From: Verrucomicrobiota bacterium
GTDB taxonomy: Bacteria > Verrucomicrobiota > Verrucomicrobiia > JADLBR01
Assembly (NCBI GenBank): GCA_029560585.1
Contig: JAKQKQ010000095.1
Location: 1-36,383, forward strand
Direction of reading: 5' to 3'
Length of the DNA: 36,383 bases
Part shown: positions 1,768-27,586 of the stretch, piece by piece
Layout of the letters: every line of letters starts with the position of its first letter
Position numbering within the stretch: position 1 is the first letter of the stretch
Program-made: the position numbers and the translations under genes
Notes under the pieces: generated by a model
What the model saw: only the letters and a program-made list of their open reading frames with translations
Databases searched by the model: none
What the model was told of the DNA's origin: nothing

Positions 1768-1813
1768 GCGACGCACCGCACCAGCGCGCAAGACGCCCCA
1801 AGGACCTATCCCT

Positions 1814-2590
1814 ATGAAAACTGTCCTCGCCGCTATCGCCCTCCCATTGATCGCCGCCCTCACCGCCGACGCCGCAGAGCATGACCTGGGCAAAGACGGC
1901 ACCCCCGGTTACCGCGACACCGAACTGGTGCCCGGGACCCAATGGCACAAGCACGATCCCGACCGGCCCCAGCCGCCCGTTGTCACCCCCGGCAAGGCCG
2001 GCGGCGCGCCATCCGACGCGATCATCCTATTCAACGGCGGCGACCTCTCGCAGTTCGAACCCACCGAGTGGAAACTCGAGGGCGATGCGATCATCACGAC
2101 AAAGGGTAATCTCGTCACGAAACGTCCGTTCGGCGACATGCAGCTCCATCTGGAATGGTGTGGCCCGGTGGAGGCCATGGAGAAATGGAGCAACCAGGGC
2201 AACAGCGGCGTGCTCCCCATGGGCCTCTACGAGATCCAGATCTTCGATTCCCACTCCACCAAGATTTACGCGGATGGCCAGGCTGCCGCCGTGTACGGGG
2301 AAACCCCGCCGCTCGTCAACGCCACCCTCCCCCGCGGCGAATGGCAGACGTACGATATCGTCTTCAAGGCGCCGGTATACGATGGCGACAAGGTCGTTAG
2401 CCCACCACGGGCAACGGTCTTTTTCAATGGCGTCGTCGTGCAGCACGACACGGAGATCAAGGGCCGCATCGCGCACCGCAAGATCCTCCCGCTTTCGCCC
2501 CACCCCGCCAAACTTCCGCTGACGATCAGCGGCCACAATTGCCCCGTCAAATTCCGCAACATCTGGGTCCGCGAACTGGCGCTCCCCTGA
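1814..2590 (+). CDS. DUF1080 / 3-keto-disaccharide hydrolase-like exported protein
   Basis: A 258-residue protein starting at the ATG that gives a clear signal peptide (MKTVLAAIALPLIAALTADA, cleavage near residue 20). The reading frame is open further upstream, but that part overlaps the previous gene and lacks a signal. The DUF1080 concanavalin-like fold is shown by ILFNGGDLSQFE near residue 70, the NSGVLPMGLYEIQIFDS block near 130-150 and the C-terminal PVKFRNIWVREL block. Proteins of this family bind or hydrolyse 3-keto-glucosides made by Gfo/Idh/MocA oxidoreductases. That fits the oxidoreductase encoded two genes downstream. The 3' end overlaps the next gene by up to 52 bp. Confidence 0.92.
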   Translation: MKTVLAAIALPLIAALTADAAEHDLGKDGTPGYRDTELVPGTQWHKHDPDRPQPPVVTPGKAGGAPSDAIILFNGGDLSQFEPTEWKLEGDAIITTKGNLVTKRPFGDMQLHLEWCGPVEAMEKWSNQGNSGVLPMGLYEIQIFDSHSTKIYADGQAAAVYGETPPLVNATLPRGEWQTYDIVFKAPVYDGDKVVSPPRATVFFNGVVVQHDTEIKGRIAHRKILPLSPHPAKLPLTISGHNCPVKFRNIWVRELALP

Positions 2591-4248
2591 ACCCGCGGGA
2601 CACGCCCCGCTGCACCCGCCGCGGCTTCCTCGCCGCCACGGGAGGGCTCGTCCTGTCAAGGGCCATCCCCGGCCTTGGCGCCGCCACCGCCCAAGGGCAG
2701 GCCCCTGCCTCTGCGGACGACATGGCGAAGATCGCGGCCGCTGTTCCCGAAAGACCCTTTGCCACGCCACTCCGGCCGCGGCGGCTCCTCGTATTCGACC
2801 TCAATGTCGGATATGGCGGCCACGGCTCCATCCGCACCGCAAACGCCGCATTCGAGCTGATGGGCCGCAAAACCGGATGTTTCGAGACCGAGTTCCATCG
2901 AGACCCCGAGGCTTTCAGGCCGGAGAACCTCGCAAGATTCGATGCCGTGTTCTTCAACAACACGGTCGGGAACCTTTTCGAGGACCCCGCGCTGAGGCGG
3001 GCCCTCGCGGAATTCATCTATGCGGGCGGCGGACTGATGGGCGCCCACGGCACCTCCGTGGCGTTCACCCGTTGGCCCGGCGCCCACGAGGACTGGCCGG
3101 AGTTTGGCCGAATGCTCGGCGCCCGCGGTGCCAGCCACCTCGCCAGCGATGAGCCCGCCTTCATCGCGCTCGATGATCCAGCCCACCCCCTCACCCAGTG
3201 CTTTCCCGCCTCGGGATTCGAATGCCAGGACGAGTTTTTCCGTTTCCAGGACCCCTATTCGCGAAATCGGGTGCGCGTGCTCCTCCGGATCGACACAGGC
3301 CGCACGCCGCCGCCAGCCGATAGGAAGCCTTTTCGTGCCGACGGCGACTACGCCCTCGCCTGGGCCCGCCAATATGGGAGGGGCCGCGTGTTCTACTGCG
3401 CGATCGCCCACAACCCCCGCACATTCTGGGATCCGCAAATGCTACGGTTCTACCTCGCCGCAACGCAGTTCGCCCTCGGCGATCTTCCCGCCCCCACCAT
3501 CCCCAGCGCCTTGCTCACCCCAGCGATCCGCGCACAAGAAGCCATGGGCTGGCGCAAGGGCCTCGAGGCGGACGATCCCTCCTCTGTGAGCCTTCTCGAT
3601 CTCATCGATCGCGCCGCCGCCATGGGCGTCCCCTACGTCGGTGCGGCGAGCGACCAGAGGCTCGGCGCCGACATGCCCGTCAAACTCAACGAGTCCATTG
3701 ATCCCGATACGTTCGAGAAGATCCGGCTCAAGCTCGACGCGTCGGGCGTGACCCTGTTGACCTATCGCGCCATGCGCCCGCCATCCGATGCCACCGGTTG
3801 GCGCGCGCTCATGGCATTCGCGCGCAAGATGGGTGCCGAAAGCCTCATCGCGGAATCCTTGCCGACGGATCTCGACGCCGTCGGCGCGCTCTGCGCCGAA
3901 TACGACATCCGCCTTGCCTGCGCGGCCGATGACCCAAATTCAATTCTGGCCGCATGCAAGAACCGCGAACCGCGCATTGGCGCCTGCGGCGATTTCTCGC
4001 GATGGGCCCGCGCCGGCATCGATCCCACAAAAGCCATCGGCGCCCTCGGCCCCCGGTTGATCACCGTTTCCGCCAGAGGCCCGCAGTGGAGCAACAATAC
4101 CTCGGCCGAGCGAATGCTCGCCGAGATCCGCGCCATGCGGCTGAATCCCACGATGTTCGCATTTGGTTGCCCGACGACCGCCGCCCCCGCGCCCGACATC
4201 TCACTGTTTGACAACAATTGCACGAAACTCGTTCACGGTCTCAGATGA
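2539..4248 (+). CDS. Tat-exported ThuA-domain protein fused to a degenerate sugar-isomerase TIM barrel
   Basis: As drawn from a TTG at 2539 the protein has 569 residues. An in-frame CTG at 2587-2589 overlaps the upstream TGA (CTGA) and would start just before the twin-arginine signal (CTRRGFLAATGG), so the true start is uncertain. Residues about 80-315 form a ThuA (trehalose-utilisation, glutamine-amidotransferase-like) domain, with FFNNTVGN, GGGLMGAHG, HPLTQCFP and GRVFYCAIAHNPRTFWD. Residues about 330-569 resemble a xylose-isomerase-like TIM barrel (PRIGACGDFSRWARAGIDPTKAIGAL). Its usual metal-binding signatures are altered: the family DxGH is GDFSRW and the LHxKD strand is VSARG. It is probably a periplasmic carbohydrate-related protein with an inactive second domain. 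Domain calls are by recognition; function is inferred. Confidence 0.85.
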   Translation: MPRQIPQHLGPRTGAPLNPRDTPRCTRRGFLAATGGLVLSRAIPGLGAATAQGQAPASADDMAKIAAAVPERPFATPLRPRRLLVFDLNVGYGGHGSIRTANAAFELMGRKTGCFETEFHRDPEAFRPENLARFDAVFFNNTVGNLFEDPALRRALAEFIYAGGGLMGAHGTSVAFTRWPGAHEDWPEFGRMLGARGASHLASDEPAFIALDDPAHPLTQCFPASGFECQDEFFRFQDPYSRNRVRVLLRIDTGRTPPPADRKPFRADGDYALAWARQYGRGRVFYCAIAHNPRTFWDPQMLRFYLAATQFALGDLPAPTIPSALLTPAIRAQEAMGWRKGLEADDPSSVSLLDLIDRAAAMGVPYVGAASDQRLGADMPVKLNESIDPDTFEKIRLKLDASGVTLLTYRAMRPPSDATGWRALMAFARKMGAESLIAESLPTDLDAVGALCAEYDIRLACAADDPNSILAACKNREPRIGACGDFSRWARAGIDPTKAIGALGPRLITVSARGPQWSNNTSAERMLAEIRAMRLNPTMFAFGCPTTAAPAPDISLFDNNCTKLVHGLR

Positions 4249-4324: not shown

Positions 4325-5713
4325 ATGATCGATATCCCGAGCGTGGCACAGGTCCAGCGCATCACCCGGCGCGCGTTTCTCGGCGCGATGACCGCGGCCT
4401 CCGCATCCCATTTCGTTCCCGCGTCAGCCCGCGGGGCCGATGGTGCCGTTGCCCCCAGCAACCGCATCACGCTCGGCCTCATCGGCCATGGCGTGATGGG
4501 CGCGGGGCACCTCGCGCATGCCGTCGGCACGAGCGCCGTCCAGGTGTTGGCCGTCTGCGACGTGGATCGCTCCAGACGCGAGGAGGCCCAGCGGCGCGTG
4601 GAGGCCGCTTACGCCGCCGCCCGCACCAGTGGAACGTATTCGGGTTGCGCCGCCTATAACGACTACCGCGAGATACTGACCCGTCCGGACATCGACGCGG
4701 TCATCATCGTCACGCCAGACCACTGGCACGCGCCCATCGCCGCCGAGGCCGCCGCCGCAGGCAAGGATATCTATTGCGAGAAACCCGTCTCGATCACCAT
4801 CGAGGAAGGCCGCAAGATGGTCTCGGCCGTCCGCCGATACGGCCGCGTTTTCCAGACGGGCAGCCAATACCGGTCCAACCAGACCATCCGGCGGGTCTGC
4901 GATTTCGTCCGGGCCGGCGGCCTGGGGAAGGTCAAGGCCGCATTCGCCCTCTGGAGCCGAATCCACGAATTCGGCGGCGCGCCCTTTCCCGTCGATCCCC
5001 CTTTGCCTGCCGAACCCATCCCCGATGGCCTGGACTGGGAACTCTGGCTTGGGCCCGCCCCGTGGCACCCGTACAATCGGCGCTATCACGTGAATCCCCC
5101 ACCCGGCGTGGTGCCATGGGCGTTCTGCGAAGATTTTGGGGCCGCCTCCGTCACCTGGCACCACTCCCACAGCGCCGACGTCATCCAATATGCCCTCGGC
5201 GTCGAGACCTCTGGACCCACCGAGATCATTCCCCCCGGCGCCGGACCATTCCCTACCCTCACCTATCGTTACGCCAACGGAACCCTGCTCCACCTCGTGG
5301 AACATTGGGGTTTGGTCAAGGAACTGTACTCCGCCGTCCCCCAGTCCGCACGCCTCGCAGGATCCTTCGGCGGAATCTTCGTCGGCGAGCGCGGCTGGGT
5401 CACGTCGATGACCACGGGCGGCCCCATCGAGGGAGAACCTGAAACGATATTCGAGGAGATGGGCCTGCGCGAACGCGAGATCACCGGTGCCAACAACCAC
5501 CACGCCAACTGGCTCGATTGCATCCGGACCCGCGCCCTGCCAAGTTCCAACGAGGAAATCGGCCACCGCGCGGCATCGCTGGGCCACCTGGCCACGATCG
5601 GTTTCAGATTGGGTCGCGCCCTGCGCTGGAATCCCAACCGCGAAGAATTCGACAACGATCCCGAGGCCAATCGCTTGCTCTCGCGCGCCATGCGAGAGTC
5701 CTGGCGCATTTAG
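4325..5713 (+). CDS. Tat-exported Gfo/Idh/MocA family NAD(P)-dependent oxidoreductase
   Basis: A 462-residue protein. The ATG is preceded by a GAGAGG-type ribosome-binding site about 9 bases upstream. The N-terminus carries a twin-arginine signal (ITRRAFLGAM, residues 13-22), so the protein should be exported folded with its cofactor, as in glucose-fructose oxidoreductase. A Rossmann fold starts at about residue 47 with LGLIGHGVMG, a variant of GxGxxG. The family EKP motif is at residues 152-154, and a catalytic-region helix contains NWLDCIRTR near 400. The size is typical of the PVC exported subfamily. With the neighbouring DUF1080 protein it fits a 3-keto-glycoside pathway (inferred). The stop overlaps the convergent SMP-30 gene by 4 bp. 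Confidence 0.93.
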   Translation: MIDIPSVAQVQRITRRAFLGAMTAASASHFVPASARGADGAVAPSNRITLGLIGHGVMGAGHLAHAVGTSAVQVLAVCDVDRSRREEAQRRVEAAYAAARTSGTYSGCAAYNDYREILTRPDIDAVIIVTPDHWHAPIAAEAAAAGKDIYCEKPVSITIEEGRKMVSAVRRYGRVFQTGSQYRSNQTIRRVCDFVRAGGLGKVKAAFALWSRIHEFGGAPFPVDPPLPAEPIPDGLDWELWLGPAPWHPYNRRYHVNPPPGVVPWAFCEDFGAASVTWHHSHSADVIQYALGVETSGPTEIIPPGAGPFPTLTYRYANGTLLHLVEHWGLVKELYSAVPQSARLAGSFGGIFVGERGWVTSMTTGGPIEGEPETIFEEMGLREREITGANNHHANWLDCIRTRALPSSNEEIGHRAASLGHLATIGFRLGRALRWNPNREEFDNDPEANRLLSRAMRESWRI

Positions 5714-15821: not shown

Positions 15822-16526
15822 TCACTTGATGGCGGCGAGATCCTGGAGCCGGATGTTCCGCCATCTGACCTCGAGGCCCGCCTCCGCGTGGCTGTGGACC
15901 TGAAGGGCGATGAATCCGGATAGGGTCGTGGAATCGGAGAAATCCGCGCGGGGTTCACCGTTGAGCCATGTCTTGATCGAGGGTCCTCGCGCCTCAATCC
16001 GGACCCGGTTCCAGTCGGCCCGCTTAAAAATCTTGCGTCCTTGTTCGGTGAACTGCTTGGCATCGCCCCCGCAGATGCCCGGGAATAGCCACCCCCGGCG
16101 CCCCTCGTCGTAGATCCCCGCCGTCCACCAGCGGTCTCGGACCAGATCCGGATCGATCTCGCACTGGTATCCGTGAACCCGCCCCGCCGGAATCTTGACC
16201 GGCTTCCCGGCGTGCTCGAACTCCGTGTCCTTATCGAAGCACTGGCTCCTGATCTGGACGCCAGAATTCAGCTTCGGATCGACTCTGAATTCAAACTCCA
16301 AAATGAAATCCGCGTAGTCCTTCGCCGTGCAAAGGAAACTGTTTGGGGTCTTGATAACCGTCTTGCCCACGATGCACCCACCCTCAACCCGATACTCCGC
16401 TTGTCCGCCCTTCTGCACCCAACCGTTCAGAGTCTTGCCATCGAAGATCGGCTTGAGGTCATCCGCCGCAACCGCGATCGGCACCCCAACAACAAAACAG
16501 ACGGCAATCAAAAGCACACTTCGCAT
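15822..16526 (-). CDS. DUF1080 / 3-keto-disaccharide hydrolase-like exported protein (second copy)
   Basis: A 234-residue protein from ATG 16526, which follows GGAGA at 5-base spacing; the longer open frame upstream is not supported. The signal peptide is MRSVLLIAVCFVVGVPIAVA. DUF1080 hallmarks are PIFDGKTLNGWVQKGG, FILEFEFRVDPKLNSGVQIRS, GYQCEIDP, GIYDEGRRGWL, WNRVRIEARGPSIKTWLNG, GFIALQVHS and WRNIRLQDL. It belongs to a different subgroup from the protein at 1814-2590: it has the classical FDGKTLNGW start and only shared key blocks. It is isolated from the sugar genes at the left end. The 200 bases past its stop hold only the tandem repeat and no gene. Confidence 0.94.
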   Translation of the reverse strand: MRSVLLIAVCFVVGVPIAVAADDLKPIFDGKTLNGWVQKGGQAEYRVEGGCIVGKTVIKTPNSFLCTAKDYADFILEFEFRVDPKLNSGVQIRSQCFDKDTEFEHAGKPVKIPAGRVHGYQCEIDPDLVRDRWWTAGIYDEGRRGWLFPGICGGDAKQFTEQGRKIFKRADWNRVRIEARGPSIKTWLNGEPRADFSDSTTLSGFIALQVHSHAEAGLEVRWRNIRLQDLAAIK

Positions 16527-16668
16527 GCGAATCTCCTTAAAACCACCCGATGTCCCGGTCCAATTCCAGTGGCCCAAGATGGATCTCACGCAACATATAA
16601 CCCAGTTTCGTCCTCGCCGAAAGTCCAATGCATCGGGCTGGACTCGAAAATTCGACGGAAAAGGAGTG

Positions 16669-16756
16669 TAGCGAAGGGCTTGCGCCCTTCGGGCCGTCGG
16701 ACCAGCACCGAAGCCGGAATGTTGGTAAAATCGCCTCTGGCGATCGGCTTCGCTAC
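16669..16756. repeat. REP-like paired hairpin element 1
   Basis: GTAGCGAAG at 16669 recurs inverted as CTTCGCTAC at 16748-16756. Inside lies a tight hairpin GAAGGGC-TTGC-GCCCTTC (16674-16691 region). It lies in the spacer between the DUF1080 gene and hisD. The layout resembles bacterial interspersed mosaic elements. Confidence 0.65.
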
Positions 16757-16823
16757 GAATTCTCCGCTCCGGTGGTCCGGCAGCCGCCGGATGGGATCTA
16801 GCTCGAGAATTCAGATGCCGAAT

Positions 16824-16874
16824 TGTAGGAGCCTGCTTGCAGGCGATTCGAATCGCGCGCGAGCGCGCTCCTAC
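16824..16874. repeat. REP-like hairpin element 2
   Basis: TGTAGGAGC at 16824 pairs with GCTCCTACG at the other end. In between are GCCTGC-TT-GCAGGC (16831-16844) and a self-complementary GATTCGAATC. The sequence TGTAGGAGCxxGCTTGCxxGC is close in form to the REP units known from Pseudomonas; that comparison is from memory. The rest of 16527-17007 has no gene. Confidence 0.65.
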
Positions 16875-17007
16875 GGCCCATTTCCTCCCCGGTGCTGGTC
16901 CGCGCCGCGTCACTGTCGCAACCCCTTCGCCTTGAGCCTATTGTCATTCGTCTCCGCGCCTGCCTGAAGGCTTCCCAAAGCCCGCCCAACTGCTACTATT
17001 TTCAGGA

Positions 17008-18934: not shown

Positions 18935-19972
18935 ATGGAATGGATCCAGCCAGCCCCGAGGGTCAAGAACCCGGTCTGGAAGTTTACCTTGTGGTTCTTG
19001 GTGATGGTCGTCCTCGGCCAACTCCTCTGGATCGTCTTCTCCATCCCCGTCTTCCGCCACACCGTCAGTGTCGAAACTCAGCTCGCGCGCGAGAACAACA
19101 CCCGCCAGCGCAACCAGATAACAACCCAGCTGAGGGAATTGCCTCCCGACATGCGCCCCGACCCGATCGCCCAGGCCCTCCAGCAGACCCCCGCCGCACC
19201 CTCCGCCCCGCCCGTCGCGCCCAACCTCGCCCTCCGCCTGCGCCCCCCAGAACCCGAAAGCCATACCAGAGAGGTCGAATCGCTCCTTCAAGATGCCAAG
19301 GAGTTCCGCCAGTTTAACGACATCATCTTCGCGAAAGCCAAACTCCTGGAGGCCCAGCGCCTCGAGCCCAAGCACCCCGAGGTGCTTCGCGAACTCGGCC
19401 TGCTCTACGAGTCGATGAACGACTGGGGATCCGCGAAGCAGACATGGCAGGACCTCCGCTCCCTCGGCGAAGCGGCCGGCCCCCTCGCCCTCTTCGCTCG
19501 GGATCGCCTCCTCGACATCGAGCGCCGGGAAACCCAGTTGGCCATGGAGCGCCAGAGCCGCACGCGCCAGAACCTTCCCCGCGACCTAACCATCGCCAAC
19601 GTCGAACCGCAGCAGGACCAGCAAGGCTTCAAATCCCTGCGCATCACAATCGCCGCCAACCTGACCCAGGGCGCCGTGGCCGTGCGCGATGTCAAGTTCC
19701 AGATCTATTTCTTCGAGGCTGACGACGAGAAGATCTACCCCGTTCCAGGAGAGTCGGTGCGATACGACTTCCTCACGGTGCCCATCAACTGGGCCGGTGG
19801 CGAACCGGAGCAAATCCTGATCCGTGCCGGCCCGTTCAGCGCCCCGCCGCTCAACTACTACGGGTACCTCATCCGCGTCTTTCACCGCGGCCAACTGCAG
19901 GATGAGGTCTCGGAACCGCCCCAGCTGGCACCTCTCTTTTCAAGCAACCCGAAGGCCGGCCCACAACCATGA
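18935..19972 (+). CDS. Membrane-anchored TPR-like protein, partner of the downstream pseudo-signalling protein
   Basis: A 345-residue protein of unknown family. Residues about 15-37 form one strong membrane segment (FTLWFLVMVVLGQLLWIVFSI), with a short N-terminal tail rich in positive charge. A Pro/Ala-rich linker (about 83-110) follows. Residues about 112-205 are helical, with TPR-type features (AKAKLLEAQRLEPKHPEVLRELGLLYES). A beta-rich C-terminal domain occupies about 215-335 (SLRITIAANL, VKFQIYFFEADDEKIYPVP, NYYGYLIRVFHRGQLQDEVSEP). The last codon overlaps the next start as ATGA, so the two products are made together and probably interact. No enzyme motif is visible. The ribosome-binding site is weak. 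Confidence 0.85.
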   Translation: MEWIQPAPRVKNPVWKFTLWFLVMVVLGQLLWIVFSIPVFRHTVSVETQLARENNTRQRNQITTQLRELPPDMRPDPIAQALQQTPAAPSAPPVAPNLALRLRPPEPESHTREVESLLQDAKEFRQFNDIIFAKAKLLEAQRLEPKHPEVLRELGLLYESMNDWGSAKQTWQDLRSLGEAAGPLALFARDRLLDIERRETQLAMERQSRTRQNLPRDLTIANVEPQQDQQGFKSLRITIAANLTQGAVAVRDVKFQIYFFEADDEKIYPVPGESVRYDFLTVPINWAGGEPEQILIRAGPFSAPPLNYYGYLIRVFHRGQLQDEVSEPPQLAPLFSSNPKAGPQP

Positions 19973-22900
19973 CCGAAAACCTGGAAATCTTCATCACCGA
20001 ACCCAGTCAGGACCTGCAGTACACGCTGCGTGAGGCCCTACGCGGTTTTGAGGGACTCCACATCCACACCTATACCGATAGCGCCGAGGCCCTCCACCGG
20101 ATGCGGGCCAGCCAACGCGTCGACCTCGTCATCGCTGAAGCCATCATGCCCACCATCGACGGCGTGAACTTGGTGGCCAAGATCATCCAACAGTTTCCCA
20201 AGGTCAAGACCATCATCCTGACCGAATACGATCTCAGCGATTACCTCCAGTATCTCGGGACGGCGCGCCTCGTTCCCAAGCCGTTCACACAAAACGACCT
20301 CACTCAGACTTTCCGATCCCTCTTCCCAAACATTCGAGAGTCGATCATGCCAATGCCCCACGCCGCCGAACCGGGGCTCGACTCGCTCAACGTCACCCAG
20401 CCGATGGGCACAGGCGCCCGTCCCCAGCCAGGCCTTGACAACCTACTGGTCACGCAACCCATGAGCGCCACACCCACGCCCGCGCGACCACCGGCGATGG
20501 CGGCAACGCCGCTCCCCGTCCCCGTCATGGCCAGCTACCGTGCACCCGCCTTCGCGCCGACCGCCCCGCAGTCGGCCACATCCGCCACCGATCGCGGCCT
20601 GGATGACCTGGACATCACCCAGCCCATGAATCAGCGGCAGATCCAGGCCCATCTGCCGGCTCACGCGAATCTCACCCCTGTCATTGCACCGAGCACCCCG
20701 CGACCCAGTTCGCAAATTCGCCCCTCCGGCCCACTCGTGCTGCCAGCGACAGTTCCCCCATCCACCATGGTCGCCGATCAGGGACTTGACGACTTGCTCG
20801 TGACTCAGCCCTTGGAACGCCGCCCCGCGCCAATGCCAGAACCAGCGCCCGCGGCCCAATTCAGCGCGTCAGCAACGCCCGTTCCTCCCCCGGGACCTCA
20901 CTTCCCAACGCCAACACCGCAACCAGCGACCCCCATGGCGTCCTCGCCTTTCAGCGGTGGTCCCTTCGGACCCGCTCCCGGAACGCCAACCCCCGCGGTG
21001 CCACCCGCATATCCGTTCGCCGCATCGGCCATGCCACCTGTGATCGGCGGCCCCATTTCGCCCGACGCACCAACCTCCGTCATCGGGGGGCCCTATCCAG
21101 CCCCCGACGCACCGCCACCCCAAGCTTTCATTCCCCAGCCAAACCCGATACCCCCTCTCCAGCAACAACCCTATCCACAGTATCCCTCCATGACACCCCC
21201 ATACCCGCCCAGTTCTCCTGTTCCCCCCATTCCACCGGTGCCGCAGCCACAGATGCCGCCACCCCCACAGAACATCCCGGCCAACGCCGGCTACCCCCCG
21301 CCACCCGGCGCGCCCCCTCCGCCTCCGAGCGCCCCCACGCCGTCCTTCCAGGCCAGCCCACCGCCGCCACCCCCGCCCGCGCCGCAGGCGCCGCCGGCCC
21401 AGTTCGAAACCGCTGGCCGCACGACGCAGTTCCGGCGTGGTCTCATGAACACCGCCGTTCCAGATCGACTCACGCTCCACCAACTCGCCGCAGGCTTGGC
21501 CGTCGGCAGTTATACGCTCTCCAAGCAGTTGCCCGACACCGAATGGGGCCCGTGCTGGATCGGGACCCAGGCCGGCGTCAATCGGCGCGTCCGATTGACG
21601 TTCTTCTCCAGCGTCGGCCCCTACAGCCAAAACGAATTCGTCACCTACTTCCAGCGCCGGGCCGCACAACCGCACCCGAACCTCCTCACGATCTTTGAGG
21701 TCGCACAGATACAGGGCCTCACCTTCGTCGCCGATGAATACTGGACCGGCGGCGACATGAGCCAGTGGCTCGCCTCTGGACACACGATCGACGCCCGCTC
21801 CGCAAACGGAATCCTCTCACAGACGTTGGCCGCCCTCCGGCACCTCTCCAACGAGCCCTGCCGGGCCATCAAGCCCAACGACCTCTTCATCTCCGAAACC
21901 GGCGTGGTGAAGCTCAATCATCTGCACCCCACCCTGGGTTCACCTGAGGCCGACAAGGGCGGCCAGATGGCCCTGATCGCCAGCTACCTCTCCCAGACGC
22001 TCGACCCACAGGCAAAACAGGTGCCCTCCCTCCACAGCCTCTTGGAGCAGATGCTCTTCAAGTCACTCTCCGTCGATCAGGCCATCAATCTCTGCAACCA
22101 GCTCGAGATCCAGCTGGCCCCGGAACGCCGCCTCGTGGAATCCCACGAGCACGCCGTCGCCGTCAAAGCCGCACAGGACGCCGAGCGAAAACACAAGCGC
22201 TTCGTCGCCATGGCCCTCACCGGCACCGCCATCGTCGTCGTCGTCGCGGGCGCCCTGCTGGGCTTCACCCTGCTCCATCGCCCCTATAAGGATTTCAAGG
22301 TCATGGTCCAGGTCCCCGCCAGCGAGTTCATCAACTCCAAAGGCCAAAAGTCGACAACGAAGACATTCTGGGCGGACGAATACGAGGTCACGATCTACCA
22401 GTACGCGCAGTTTCTCATCGACGTGAAGAAACGCGGCAACTTTCGCGACTATGCCCACCCGGACATGCCCAAGACCAAGAAATCCTATGAGCCCTCCAAA
22501 TGGAATGAAATCTATCGGGCCATAAAACAGAACAGGAAATACTACGGCGACGTCATCACCTACAACACCCCGGTCTTCAACGTCGATTTCTGGGACGCCT
22601 ACGCGTACGCAAAATGGGCGGGCAAGCGATTGCCCACCGAAGACGAGTGGGACCACATGGCCATGGGCCGCAGCGGCAGACCCTACCCCTGGGGCAACGA
22701 GCCCCAGAAGAAGTTTGCCAATACCGGCGAGGATTACTTCGCTGGCGACCCGACGCTCGGCGGTAATATCGACGGTTTCCGCGGCTGGAGCGACGTCGAC
22801 AAGACGCCCCTCGATGCCTCTGAGAACGGCGTCAAGAACCTGGAGGGCAACGTCAGCGAATGGACGATGTCCCCAGGACCGGATAAGCTTGGCCTTCCGA

Positions 22901-23046
22901 CAATGGTCGTCAAAGGCGGCAACTTTGCCGGCTCGATGAAGACCCTGAAAGAGGACTTTCCCCAACCCCAACTGCGCGATGCAACCCAGCTCTGGCTCGG
23001 CTTCCGCTGCGTCTCCGATCAGCCCCCGCCAGAATCCGCCAAGTGA
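19969..23046 (+). CDS. Fusion of pseudo-receiver, TQP-repeat linker, pseudokinase, membrane span and SUMF1 domain
   Basis: A 1025-residue protein. Residues 5-118 have the shape of a response-regulator receiver domain: T85 and K104 are kept, but the phospho-acceptor is Glu57 (DLVIAEAIMP) and the acidic pair is altered (ITEPS). Residues 120-480 are proline-rich and contain four repeats GLDxLx(V/I)TQP(M/L) at 136-146, 155-165, 210-220 and 272-282. Residues about 500-720 resemble a Ser/Thr kinase with no glycine-rich loop, CRAIKPND in place of HRDIKPxN and no DFG, so it is probably inactive. One membrane segment lies at about 746-768. Residues about 778-1015 are a SUMF1/FGE-type domain (RLPTEDEWDHMA, PYPWGNE, NLEGNVSEWT, VVKGGNF, LGFRCV) without the FGE cysteine pair. 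Topology would put the SUMF1 domain outside. Role unknown. Confidence 0.93.
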   Translation: MTENLEIFITEPSQDLQYTLREALRGFEGLHIHTYTDSAEALHRMRASQRVDLVIAEAIMPTIDGVNLVAKIIQQFPKVKTIILTEYDLSDYLQYLGTARLVPKPFTQNDLTQTFRSLFPNIRESIMPMPHAAEPGLDSLNVTQPMGTGARPQPGLDNLLVTQPMSATPTPARPPAMAATPLPVPVMASYRAPAFAPTAPQSATSATDRGLDDLDITQPMNQRQIQAHLPAHANLTPVIAPSTPRPSSQIRPSGPLVLPATVPPSTMVADQGLDDLLVTQPLERRPAPMPEPAPAAQFSASATPVPPPGPHFPTPTPQPATPMASSPFSGGPFGPAPGTPTPAVPPAYPFAASAMPPVIGGPISPDAPTSVIGGPYPAPDAPPPQAFIPQPNPIPPLQQQPYPQYPSMTPPYPPSSPVPPIPPVPQPQMPPPPQNIPANAGYPPPPGAPPPPPSAPTPSFQASPPPPPPPAPQAPPAQFETAGRTTQFRRGLMNTAVPDRLTLHQLAAGLAVGSYTLSKQLPDTEWGPCWIGTQAGVNRRVRLTFFSSVGPYSQNEFVTYFQRRAAQPHPNLLTIFEVAQIQGLTFVADEYWTGGDMSQWLASGHTIDARSANGILSQTLAALRHLSNEPCRAIKPNDLFISETGVVKLNHLHPTLGSPEADKGGQMALIASYLSQTLDPQAKQVPSLHSLLEQMLFKSLSVDQAINLCNQLEIQLAPERRLVESHEHAVAVKAAQDAERKHKRFVAMALTGTAIVVVVAGALLGFTLLHRPYKDFKVMVQVPASEFINSKGQKSTTKTFWADEYEVTIYQYAQFLIDVKKRGNFRDYAHPDMPKTKKSYEPSKWNEIYRAIKQNRKYYGDVITYNTPVFNVDFWDAYAYAKWAGKRLPTEDEWDHMAMGRSGRPYPWGNEPQKKFANTGEDYFAGDPTLGGNIDGFRGWSDVDKTPLDASENGVKNLEGNVSEWTMSPGPDKLGLPTMVVKGGNFAGSMKTLKEDFPQPQLRDATQLWLGFRCVSDQPPPESAK

Positions 23047-23140: not shown

Positions 23141-25142
23141 CGGCCTTCAATGGATCCATCGCCTGATCGTCGGCACGCGATTCCTTCAGCGCCTCGCCAA
23201 AACGCAGCGCCCTCCAGCTCACCGTGACGCTCGAAACCAGCATCAGCACGGCTGCCGCGACCGGGTGCAATACGCCCCCCGCCGCAAGACCAATCCCAAG
23301 AAGATTGTAAACGGCCGCGAATAACAGATTCGCGCGAATCCCGCCCACGACCCGTCTGCCGATACGCACTGCCCCGGCCACCGCCTCTAGATCGCCGCCG
23401 TATAGCGCAGCGTCCGCGACTTCGCGCGGCAGCGCCGCCCCACCCGACATCGCCACTGAAGCGAATGCCGTTGCCATAGCGGGCGCATCGTTGACGCCAT
23501 CCCCCACAAACAGCACCCGGGCACCGCCATCTTGAGACGCGGCCACGCGGCGTGCTTTCTCCTCCGCCGTAAGGCCCGCCTCACAATCGGCCAACTCCAG
23601 CACCGAGGCACTGTCGGCACGATCGCCCGTCATGACCTTCACCGCCATGCCCATCTCCGCGAGCGCCTGGCGCGCGCGGGCCACCGAATCCCTCATCCTC
23701 TCCCTCACCAGCGCCACCGCCACCAGGCGCCCGTCCACCACCACGAAGATCTCGTGCAGATGGCCCGCCGGACGCTTCAGCCCCGCAAGCAACGCCGAGG
23801 AATCTCCAGCAGCCACTCCCTCCAGCACACCACGATTGCCCACGGCCAGCGACATTTCCCGCCCTTTGGATAGGATCCCGGCCCGGACCCCGACGCCGGG
23901 GATCGTCGCCACCGCCGCTACCTCCACCCGCGCCCCACCGCCCCACTCCCGAAACGCCGCCGCGACCGGATGCCGACTCCGTTCTTCGATCGCCGCCACC
24001 CACGCCCGAATTTCCTCCCTGTCACATCCCTCCACAACGGCGAAATCCACCGCCGAAAATGCCTCGTCACTCAGGGTCCCGGTCTTGTCGAACACGACCG
24101 TGTCTACTCGCGCCAATCGCTCGAGGAAGGAACCCGAGAACGCCGCAATCCCCCGCTCCGCCAGCGCATTCAGCCCGCTCCAGATGCCGATCGGTGTCGC
24201 CAAACCCATTGCACAGGGACACGCCACCACCAGGACCGCCAACCCGTTGAACAGCCCCGTGCGCCATCCCGACGCTAGCGTCCAGCACACAAAAACCAGG
24301 ACCGCCGCCGCCATCACCGCCGGCAGGAACCATCCCACGATCTTGTCCGCCTCCCGCTGCAAGTCCGATGGCCTGGCCACCGCTGCCTCCACAACTCCCA
24401 GCAGCCGGTCCAGTTGCCTCTCGCCGCCTGAGGCAGTCGCCCGGACCACCAGCGGATCGTCCATCACGTGCGCTCCCGCCAAGATCCGGTCGCCGGGGCG
24501 TTTCACCACCGGAAACGGTTCCCCCGTCATTGGCGTCTCCCGCACGAACGCCACGCCTTCCTCCACCAGCCCATCCACAGGAACCCCATCCCCGGCACCC
24601 ACCCAAACCCGATCACCCTCCATCACGTCAGCCGTCGGACATGCCTCCCTCTTGCCGCAGCATGTCAGCCTCACGCACCGTCCAAACTCCCTCCGCAGCC
24701 GATCGGCGCTCGCCAGAGCCGCGTGCCTCCGGTTCCGCCCTATCACAGTGCCGAGCGTGTAGATCGCCACCAGCACCGCCACCACCTCGTAGTACACGTC
24801 CCCGTGCCCCGTCAGCGTCGCGTGTACCGAAGCCCCGAACGCCCCCGCGATCCCTGCCAGAAATAACTGCTCCACTACCACCCGACCCGCATGCGCCTGC
24901 CGCCACGCCTCCCGCACGATCGGCAGGCCCGCCAAGAGAAAAACGCCCAGCGCCGAGGCCCCCAGCACTCCGTGCAACACCCACCTCTCCACCCCCGTCG
25001 GCGGCGACACATTCGCCGCAATGCCAAACGCCATCCCCTGCCCCGCCAACACCGCCGCCACCCCGAGACGCACCCACTCCATCGACCCGGTCCGTGCAAC
25101 CGCGCCACCTTCGCCACCCGATGCGTGACAACAACCCGCCAT
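23109..25142 (-). CDS. P1B-type heavy-metal ATPase, copper-like
   Basis: A 677-residue protein from ATG 25142, which follows AGGTGA by 6 bases; an upstream open extension to 25214 is unsupported. P-type hallmarks are MTGEP (205-209), CPC metal site in ACPCAMGLATP (308-310), DKTGT (phospho-Asp352), SRHPVA, MTGDRADSA and GDGVNDAP. The late membrane segments have VYNLLG and MLVSSVTVS, which match the YN and MxxSS signatures of Cu(I) exporters (P1B-1). There is no N-terminal HMA domain; instead a short MAGCCHAS start and a Cys cluster (Cys156, 161, 162, 168) sit around the actuator domain. The C-terminal nine residues come from palindrome copy B, so the tail is not ancestral. Confidence 0.93.
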   Translation of the reverse strand: MAGCCHASGGEGGAVARTGSMEWVRLGVAAVLAGQGMAFGIAANVSPPTGVERWVLHGVLGASALGVFLLAGLPIVREAWRQAHAGRVVVEQLFLAGIAGAFGASVHATLTGHGDVYYEVVAVLVAIYTLGTVIGRNRRHAALASADRLRREFGRCVRLTCCGKREACPTADVMEGDRVWVGAGDGVPVDGLVEEGVAFVRETPMTGEPFPVVKRPGDRILAGAHVMDDPLVVRATASGGERQLDRLLGVVEAAVARPSDLQREADKIVGWFLPAVMAAAVLVFVCWTLASGWRTGLFNGLAVLVVACPCAMGLATPIGIWSGLNALAERGIAAFSGSFLERLARVDTVVFDKTGTLSDEAFSAVDFAVVEGCDREEIRAWVAAIEERSRHPVAAAFREWGGGARVEVAAVATIPGVGVRAGILSKGREMSLAVGNRGVLEGVAAGDSSALLAGLKRPAGHLHEIFVVVDGRLVAVALVRERMRDSVARARQALAEMGMAVKVMTGDRADSASVLELADCEAGLTAEEKARRVAASQDGGARVLFVGDGVNDAPAMATAFASVAMSGGAALPREVADAALYGGDLEAVAGAVRIGRRVVGGIRANLLFAAVYNLLGIGLAAGGVLHPVAAAVLMLVSSVTVSWRALRFGEALKESRADDQAMDPLKAGARDFAAVRL

Positions 25143-25259
25143 GCACTTCACCTGAAGCACCAATTCTGCTCCTGTCACCCAAAAAGAATGTCGTCCGCAT
25201 CGACTTTCCCACAACCTCGACTTGACCGACCGCTCGACACCACACCACCATCGGGACCG
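25143..25259. promoter_or_regulatory. Divergent promoter region between ATPase and isomerase genes
   Basis: A 117-bp gap between two genes read in opposite directions must hold both promoters unless either gene is read from further away. No clear operator or -10/-35 pair stands out. The minus-strand ribosome-binding site AGGTGA for the ATPase is visible at its left edge. Confidence 0.4.
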
Positions 25260-26156
25260 ATGAAACTCGGTCTCTTCTCAGTCGGCTACGCGGGATTCTG
25301 GGGACAGGCGAAACTGACGCTCCCCGACTTCATCGCTCGCGCCGGCCGACTCGGCTACGCCTCCGTTATGCTCGTGGGCAAACGCCCACATCTCTCGCCG
25401 CTGGACGCCACCCCGGACTTCCTCCAATCGGTCAAGAGCGCACTTCGCGCGGCGGGCGTGAGCTGCGATGTCATCGCCGCTTACACGAACCTCGCGCAAG
25501 ATGACCCCGCCGAAGTGCCCGCGATCGACTTCCAGATCGCCTATGTGGACTCACTCGTCCGCTCCGCTGCCGAGCTGGGTGCCCGCTTCGTCCGCATCTT
25601 CACAGCCTACGATGCCGACGGCCTGAACCCCCAGGCGCAATGGGATCGCGTCGTCGGCGCCATTCGCGAGATGTGCGACCGCGCCGCGGCTCACGGAGTC
25701 ACCATCGCCATCCAAAACCATCACGATATAGGCCTCCACACCGAAGCGCTCCTGGAACTCCTCGCGGAAATCGATCGGCCCAATTGCAGGCTCGGATTCG
25801 ACGCCTGGTCGCCCGCCCTCCGCGGCGAGAATCTCTACGAGGCCGCGCGGCGCGCCGCGCCCCACGCGGCCATCACGACAAACGCCGATTACATCCATGC
25901 CCCCCGCTACCGCTATCGGCCCGCGCTCGTGAATTACGAGCGGCAGTCCCCCGACTGGGTGCGCGCCGTCCCCTTTGGCTCCGGCTTTATCGATTATGCC
26001 GCCTTTTTCAAGGGCCTGCGCGATGGCGGCTTCGATGGTGTGGCCACGTATGAGATGTGCTCGCCACTCCGCGGCGGCGGATCCTTGGAAAACCTCGATG
26101 CCTGTGCCACGAAATACCTGACATGGATGCGCGAGAACAATCACCTCGCACGATAG
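25260..26156 (+). CDS. Sugar phosphate isomerase/epimerase-type TIM barrel protein
   Basis: A 298-residue cytoplasmic protein from ATG 25260; the frame is open further upstream but that part shadows the ATPase gene. It has the AP-endonuclease-2/xylose-isomerase-like barrel: MKLGLFSVGYAGFWGQ, the ARAGRLGYASVML strand-helix, LGARFVRIFTAY, TIAIQNHHD (metal-site strand), CRLGFDAWSPAL, and the final GFDGVATYEMCSPLRGGG with the usual Glu ligand. The DxxH strand near TTNADYIH is slightly unusual. Substrate cannot be told. It is followed after 38 bp by an exported FAD oxidoreductase, so the two are probably in one operon. Confidence 0.9.
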   Translation: MKLGLFSVGYAGFWGQAKLTLPDFIARAGRLGYASVMLVGKRPHLSPLDATPDFLQSVKSALRAAGVSCDVIAAYTNLAQDDPAEVPAIDFQIAYVDSLVRSAAELGARFVRIFTAYDADGLNPQAQWDRVVGAIREMCDRAAAHGVTIAIQNHHDIGLHTEALLELLAEIDRPNCRLGFDAWSPALRGENLYEAARRAAPHAAITTNADYIHAPRYRYRPALVNYERQSPDWVRAVPFGSGFIDYAAFFKGLRDGGFDGVATYEMCSPLRGGGSLENLDACATKYLTWMRENNHLAR

Positions 26157-26194
26157 CAATTCCCCCGCAGAGAGCACCATGGTAGGCTTTTGTC

Positions 26195-27586
<1,392 letters not shown>

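Follow-up and report, generated by a model that had tools for sequence, protein, structure and literature searches.

Repeated loss of the metal site in the barrel half of a bacterial ThuA fusion protein

The stretch of DNA analysed here (hereafter the window) comprises positions 1 to 36,383 of contig JAKQKQ010000095.1 from a Verrucomicrobiota bacterium (JADLBR01). It contains a gene encoding a ThuA domain fused to a predicted sugar isomerase-type barrel from which the metal site has been lost. This fusion defines a protein family of the Planctomycetes–Verrucomicrobia–Chlamydiae (PVC) bacteria in which most members have an intact site. The site has been lost in separate lineages, the lost barrels remain under constraint, and the fusion gene is paired with a gene for a particular Gfo/Idh/MocA oxidoreductase. 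On balance, it is probable that the window protein is part of a ThuA–Gfo module for C3-oxidised sugars, and that its barrel, which descends from a metal enzyme, has become a pseudoenzyme retained for structural support or docking.

Fold and lost metal site of the window barrel

The first half of the fusion protein scored 118.9 bits against PF06283 (curated cut-off 33.4) and covered profile positions 1–209 of 209, establishing that it is a ThuA domain. This half of the predicted model superposed on the ThuA-like protein 4jqs with a Z of 20.9. The second half had no PF01261 match at E ≤ 1 in the Pfam search, and thus fell short of the curated Pfam score; 23 of 26 aligned family members matched this profile at E ≤ 0.1. 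However, phmmer aligned residues 336–507 with 4kw2 (E 1.4e-13) and residues 334–510 with 3p6l (E 2.9e-11), and hhalign of the window barrel against a profile combining intact fused barrels with solo ones gave a probability of 100.

An AlphaFold2 model of the window protein was built with 26 family rows. The mean predicted local distance difference test score (pLDDT) was 79.8 and the predicted template modelling score was 0.82; blocks within the barrel were mostly at a pLDDT of 86–95 with dips to 69–78. Eight barrel strands were assigned in this model, and predicted residues 329–565 superposed on 3p6l with a VIA Z of 28.3 and a root-mean-square deviation of 2.1 over 234 aligned residues. A model of the intact relative L018 superposed on the same structure with a Z of 33.3. 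As modelled, the second half is a (β/α)8 barrel and a homologue of the sugar isomerase/epimerase barrels. A different fold was ruled out by the AlphaFold2 model and its superposition on 3p6l.

The residues that line the metal site of intact relatives are largely missing from this barrel (Table 1). Only Glu439 and Asp485 are left; A, D, R and G occupy positions 462, 464, 513 and 543, and the window protein lacks the complete ligand set on β4, β5, β6, β7 and β8. A deletion neighbours A462-A463-D464, and the loop DVPWGTG is gone from both the window barrel and that of the congener L017. Because the same β5, β7 and β8 residues are missing from L017 (64% identical), sequencing error or a frameshift was ruled out as the cause. 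Relocation of the ligands was also considered and rejected; no His is present in residues 331–560, and of the 13 D/E/H/C residues common to the window protein and L017, only D485 lies at a site column. We infer that this loss abolishes catalysis.

The initial annotation had described this gene as a ThuA domain fused to an isomerase barrel without its metal site, and PF06283, phmmer, the superposition on 3p6l and the lost residues all agree with that description. Neither of the outcomes that it named as refuting was seen, since the predicted fold is that of an isomerase barrel and no relocated His ligand lies within residues 331–560. Its reading of the motifs was only partly correct. GDFSRW was taken as a lost DxGH; the GH is indeed lost, but the ligand Asp (D485) is present and GH is already GY in 40/40 intact relatives. 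Similarly, VSARG was taken as a lost LHxKD; the β7 His is lost, but intact relatives read QMHD or similar at this position. The losses of the β5 H-N-H, the β8 Glu and the DVPWGTG loop extend beyond these two motifs.

Spread of the fusion, recurrence of site loss and constraint on the lost barrels

A genome-contig collection was scanned with the whole fused protein; 70 stretches matched the pattern and 28 were confirmed as relatives, which come from Planctomycetota, Verrucomicrobia and Lentisphaerae plus one uncultured bacterium. Both halves were seen in 26 of these, the other two (L042 and L044) being cut by a contig end. In a sample of the class, 18 of 384 genomes matched at E ≤ 1e-60, and 17 of these carry the fusion. 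The remaining match (L060 in G135) is a ThuA domain without the barrel, 38–41% identical to that of the window and beginning an open frame that runs for at least 811 residues. Family-level searches with the fused protein as query matched 2/3, 10/14 and 5/7 genomes and a phylum sample 6/387 at 1e-100, although these sets overlap. We conclude that the ThuA–barrel fusion is a PVC family. It had been thought unusual, which is not borne out by 26 of 28 relatives with both halves and 17 fusions among 384 class genomes. An NCBIfam search gave weak matches only, and no paper listed in searches of the open-licence PMC library described the fusion, as judged by titles and abstract openings.

We aligned 53 fusion proteins. 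Exclusions were the two contig-end cases, L043 (its ThuA contains a run of N; the barrel, left out of the counts, shows the site), L060, and the distant ThuA-only or barrel-only matches L002–L007 and L009–L016; L008 was treated as the same contig as L017. Site state was assigned from the site columns before the tree was built, which gave 40 intact, 3 partial and 10 lost proteins. All 40 intact members have Glu on β4, His-Asn-His on β5, Asp on β6, His and Asp on β7, and Glu on β8. The lost members are the window protein, L017, L040, L054/L055, L056/L058, L068 and L071/L072. Partial members lack the second β5 His and the β4 Glu (L047/L048) or the first β5 His (L041). With 9 intact, 6 lost and 2 partial among the 17 fusion genomes of the class sample, loss is common there; the 25 rows from the genome-contig collection comprise 22 intact, 2 lost and 1 partial. 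In the family as a whole an inactive barrel is the less common state, 40 of 53 being intact.

The conserved site of intact fusions, as in L018 (residues 494–497 and 471), is itself unusual. On β7 they have Q-x-H-D where solo barrels have H-x-K-D (Q in 39/40), and on β6 G-Y-W in place of G-H-W (Y in 40/40). As the solo barrels L003 and L005 of the window genome keep the site, and 3p6l and 4kw2 also have it, we took the intact site as ancestral and ruled out that it is the derived state. In L040 (Phycisphaerales bin164), an internal deletion removes the β5 to β7 site region, yet 104/104 conserved ThuA columns are kept.

A maximum-likelihood tree was inferred from ThuA columns only (residues 55–333). 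On this tree the lost state requires five changes, at least three of which are forced by starred branches. Constraining the ten lost rows to a single clade apart from the 40 intact rows cost 80.4 log-likelihood units (p-AU 0.000565), and a single clade of losses was rejected by this approximately unbiased (AU) test, although the long branches of some rows make a test of this kind weaker. Placement is unsure for L041, L070, L068 and L035, all of which have long terminal branches. An unstarred branch (86/91) joins the window pair to L071/L072 and L041 without resolution inside the group, and the loss in the window pair and that in L071/L072 may be one event. From these data we conclude that site loss recurs in separate lineages.

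Columns conserved in at least 38 of the 40 intact proteins numbered 104 in ThuA and 93 in the barrel. Lost members keep 89–104 of these ThuA columns compared to 20–49 of the barrel columns; the window protein keeps 102 and 47, respectively, and L071/L072 keep 20 in the barrel. Nei–Gojobori ratios of nonsynonymous to synonymous change (dN/dS) were calculated for 16 hand-chosen pairs (4 lost, 1 partial and 11 intact) rather than for all possible pairs, and are rough because dS was near 1 in several of them. In the site half of the barrel, the four lost pairs gave 0.38, 0.27, 0.41 and 0.60 and the partial pair 0.57, compared to 0.08–0.26 in 9 of the 11 intact pairs (two were saturated). The corresponding values for ThuA were 0.02–0.14 in lost pairs and 0.05–0.18 in 10 of the 11 intact pairs. 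The ratios of the lost site halves indicate that constraint was relaxed but not gone. Neutral simulation at about the observed dS yielded a mean of 7–15 stops per pair, and for each of the four lost pairs none of 400 runs was stop-free under the two mutation models. The real lost barrels are open throughout, with no in-frame stop.

Five barrel positions are identical in all ten lost proteins: Pro328, Trp338, Gln373, Arg396 and Gly432. Trp338 and Gly432 are also common among solo barrels. Gln373 and Pro537, the latter kept in 9/10 lost members where solo barrels mostly have Gly, are more family-specific. At the positions of Arg396 and Arg429, most solo barrels carry Lys or Arg. Judged from the alignment, the kept residues could be what a retained structural or docking face would look like.

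Partner oxidoreductase and gene neighbourhood

The gene downstream of the fusion encodes a Gfo/Idh/MocA oxidoreductase, and an ortholog adjoins the fusion gene in all ten lost members, lying upstream in L054, L055 and L068. In L017 it is a 57-residue fragment before the contig end. Among the 40 intact members, 24 have a match of at least 55% identity within the locus examined, including one about 3 kb from the fusion (L030) and a 50-residue fragment (L037), and two have weaker matches (46% and 36%). Two of the three partial members also have the ortholog in the locus. When 21 fusion genomes were searched, 19 contained a match at E ≤ 1e-100. Twelve of the 14 intact members without a flanking ortholog were covered by this search, and in ten of these the genome has one elsewhere or nearby, e.g. 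about 1.4 kb from the fusion in G007 and G023.

Co-occurrence was examined in the 384 genomes with different cut-offs for the fusion (E ≤ 1e-60) and the oxidoreductase (E ≤ 1e-150). Both were found in 14 genomes, the fusion only in 3, the oxidoreductase only in 1 and neither in 366, giving a Fisher p of 7.4e-22 that takes genomes as independent, without correction for shared ancestry. The oxidoreductase is therefore present in 14/17 fusion genomes compared to 1/367 others. The three fusion genomes without a match are G227, G262 and G001, the G001 contig ending inside the gene. We conclude that the ThuA fusion is genetically paired with a Gfo/Idh/MocA dehydrogenase. The oxidoreductase-only genome, G134, is a place where ThuA may have dropped the barrel.

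The first 17 codons of the fusion open reading frame overlap the 3′ end of the upstream gene (stop at 2588–2590). Its true start is probably near 2587–2590, for example the CTG at 2587 preceding the twin-arginine motif; a simple RR pattern is present in 35/53 family members. The upstream gene encodes a 3-keto-disaccharide hydrolase (PF06439). Among the loci examined, many with short flanks, only the window and L017 gave a BLAST match to such a gene next to the fusion. As this arrangement was seen only in the genus of the window, it was not used as general evidence. On another contig of the window genome (L007), a 28-residue stretch is 82% identical to window ThuA residues 172–199 and is followed by a stop with no further match; perhaps it is a small remnant left by a second copy or by recombination. 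The window also contains a second PF06439 gene, a solo barrel gene and a gene for a protein with receiver and FGE-sulfatase domains (Table 1).

Table 1. Coordinates of features in the window
Feature	Position	Strand	Basis or comparison
Fusion open reading frame	2539-4248	+	569 codons, open throughout
Twin-arginine export signal with RRGFL motif at residues 27-31; probable region of the true start	2587..2700	+	Direct sequence reading
ThuA domain, residues 82-312	2782..3474	+	PF06283 E 4.9e-34
Degenerate xylose-isomerase-like barrel, residues 326-569	3514..4245	+	phmmer to 4kw2 and 3p6l; predicted fold
Gln373, kept in 10/10 lost barrels	3655..3657	+	39/40 intact; solo barrels L, V, L, H, Q, one without data
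Arg396, kept in 10/10 lost barrels	3724..3726	+	40/40 intact; solo barrels K, K, K, 3p6l K, 4kw2 R, one without data
Glu439, β4 site Glu, kept	3853..3855	+	E in 40/40 intact relatives; D in congener L017
A462-A463-D464 replacing β5 H-N-H	3922..3930	+	H, N, H in 40/40 intact relatives
Asp485, β6 metal-ligand position, kept	3991..3993	+	D in 40/40 intact; as aligned, in 7/10 lost members
S511-A512-R513-G514 replacing β7 Q-x-H-D	4069..4080	+	Intact: Q 39/40, H 40/40, D 40/40
G543 replacing β8 Glu	4165..4167	+	E in 40/40 intact relatives
Gfo/Idh/MocA oxidoreductase, partner	4325..5713	+	PF01408 E 2.4e-20, PF19051 E 1.2e-19; own twin-arginine motif by eye
Upstream 3-keto-disaccharide hydrolase, overlaps fusion frame	1808..2590	+	PF06439 E 1.8e-31
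Second 3-keto-disaccharide hydrolase	15822-16913	-	PF06439 E 5.2e-40
Solo xylose-isomerase-like barrel, beside a flavin adenine dinucleotide (FAD)-dependent oxidoreductase	24891-27586	+	PF01261 E 1.2e-30
1025-residue protein: N-terminal response-regulator receiver, C-terminal formylglycine-generating enzyme (FGE)-sulfatase (sulfatase-modifying-factor-like) domain	19969-23046	+	

Retention of the lost barrel and comparison with known systems

The explanation that we favor begins with a PVC family in which ThuA, often with an export signal, was fused to a metal-dependent triosephosphate isomerase (TIM)-type barrel of the 3-keto-sugar type. Together with one particular Gfo/Idh/MocA oxidoreductase, the fusion would act on sugars or glycosides oxidised at C3. 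The barrel would formerly have carried out a metal-dependent step that it can presumably no longer perform in the window lineage, and would now have a structural or docking role towards ThuA and/or the oxidoreductase. Its former reaction may have become unnecessary, or may be carried out by a separate barrel enzyme; the window genome has solo barrels with an intact site.

Several observations weigh against this explanation. Glu439 and Asp485 remain in the window barrel, so a weak or altered metal site could still exist. The canonical β7 His position is Gln in 39/40 intact members, and the activity of these members is therefore an assumption; indeed, the functions of all members were deduced from sequence and models and none from activity. 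The proposed docking role depends on few residues, the placement of which relative to ThuA is presumed, and Arg396, like Arg429, is a weak mark of family specificity because most solo barrels have Lys or Arg there. In the N-terminal half of the barrel, dN/dS of lost pairs (0.10–0.50) overlaps that of intact pairs (0.04–0.31). No Gfo ortholog was found in the flanks examined for 14/40 intact members, or in the genomes searched for the g116 pair (2/12), and G134 has the oxidoreductase (contig C71 1892-3316, 60% identical) with no fusion match at E ≤ 1e-60. The limits on the dN/dS values and on the co-occurrence p given above belong here as well.

A further proposal, which we advance tentatively and consider somewhat doubtful, is that a non-catalytic job of the barrel, keeping ThuA and its Gfo/Idh/MocA partner together in a complex, predates the losses, so that catalysis could be lost repeatedly but the domain could not. 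Gln373, Arg396 and Arg429 would then be candidate marks of the retained face. If this proposal is true, the family is a replicated natural experiment in pseudoenzyme formation.

It is unlikely that the barrel has instead become a domain that binds or senses a sugar without catalysis, whether as a carbohydrate-binding module or as a regulatory domain binding an effector. The predicted fold and the Glu/Asp pair remain, the dN/dS values and the neutral simulation indicate persisting constraint, and sugar genes lie nearby, as this alternative would have it. However, across the lost lineages the first β5 His becomes A, A, K, K, R, R, R or a gap, and the β1 Tyr is lost in 10/10, a pattern unlike one conserved new pocket; moreover, L040 lacks the whole β5 to β7 site region. 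The carbohydrate-binding module suggested by the initial annotation thus found no specific support, since what the lost barrels appear to share in the alignment is a few structural or family-specific residues and not a new pocket.

Similarly, we think it improbable that the barrel is vestigial and decaying with nothing depending on it. Decay would account for the raised site-half dN/dS in all four lost pairs (0.27–0.60), the large internal deletion in L040 and the retention of only 20 of 93 conserved columns in L071/L072. It is difficult to reconcile with the absence of in-frame stops where neutrality predicts a mean of 7–15 per pair, with dN/dS below 1, with five positions identical in 10/10 lost barrels, or with a fold that is predicted with confidence. 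That the barrel remains enzymatically active through a rearranged or metal-free site is very doubtful: the window protein retains Glu439 and Asp485 and the site can vary, intact fusions having Q-x-H for H-x-K, but no His is left in window residues 331–560, L017 has Asp at the Glu439 position, and the DVPWGTG loop and the β8 Glu are gone in both proteins.

A mostly intact family with repeated loss, in which ThuA, the barrel domain and the partner are all retained, is of more interest than an inactive barrel alone. With several separate losses, intact sisters and a conserved partner, comparison can test why a pseudoenzyme domain is kept. In addition, the association of ThuA with one oxidoreductase across many PVC genomes provides a concrete protein pair for seeking the reaction of ThuA.

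Each half of the fusion has counterparts of known structure. The solo barrels 3p6l (BDI_1903), 4kw2 (BDI_1873) and 3lmz of Parabacteroides distasonis belong to the same barrel family by sequence and structure, with Z values against the window barrel of 28.3, 22.1 and 24.1, respectively. Their chains of 240–262 residues lack a ThuA half, and their entry titles name no reaction. Unlike the window protein, 3p6l and 4kw2 keep E, HNH, D-GH, HxKD/HLKD and E. The ThuA-like proteins 4jqs/4pxy (Bacteroides uniformis) and 1t0b (Bacillus stearothermophilus) share the ThuA fold but are chains of about 240 residues without a barrel.

As for chemistry, the fold class of the window barrel includes, among many isomerases and epimerases, AtHYD (8ro4), E. 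coli YcjR (6wn6) and C-glycoside deglycosidases. AtHYD, a 2-hydroxy-3-keto-glucal hydratase, and AtOGE, a 3-keto-glycoside β-eliminase, are Agrobacterium enzymes. AtOGE was not among the matches listed in our structural and sequence comparisons. According to PMC10628242, Mn2+ in AtOGE is held by His132, Asp163, His189 and weakly by Glu233, with His134 as the catalytic residue. By strand order, without an alignment, the H-x-H on β5, D on β6 and E on β8 of intact fusions follow the AtOGE order, whereas the usual β7 His is Gln in 39/40 and a His stands two residues on in 40/40. Mapped in the same way, His132, His134, His189 and Glu233 have no counterparts in the window protein, which keeps only the Asp. 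As the β7 position is not equivalent and the comparison was by strand order, the likeness to AtOGE is a lead on chemistry and not a sign of membership. DUF1080/PF06439, the family of the upstream gene, includes the 3-ketotrehalose hydrolase BT2157, according to PMC9007349. Following the BT2156–BT2160 lead revealed no function for the barrel.

Rhizobial ThuB is Gfo/Idh/MocA-like, and the pairing of ThuA with a Gfo/Idh/MocA dehydrogenase defines the rhizobial ThuA/ThuB pathway. That pair likewise consists of a ThuA protein and a partner gene, although the window ThuA differs in its export signal and fused barrel. PMC6515357 describes the rhizobial thuAB genes as producing the 3-keto derivatives of trehalose and maltitol. 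By analogy with these relatives and with the neighbouring genes, the substrates of the ThuA–barrel fusion are likely C3-oxidised sugars or glycosides.

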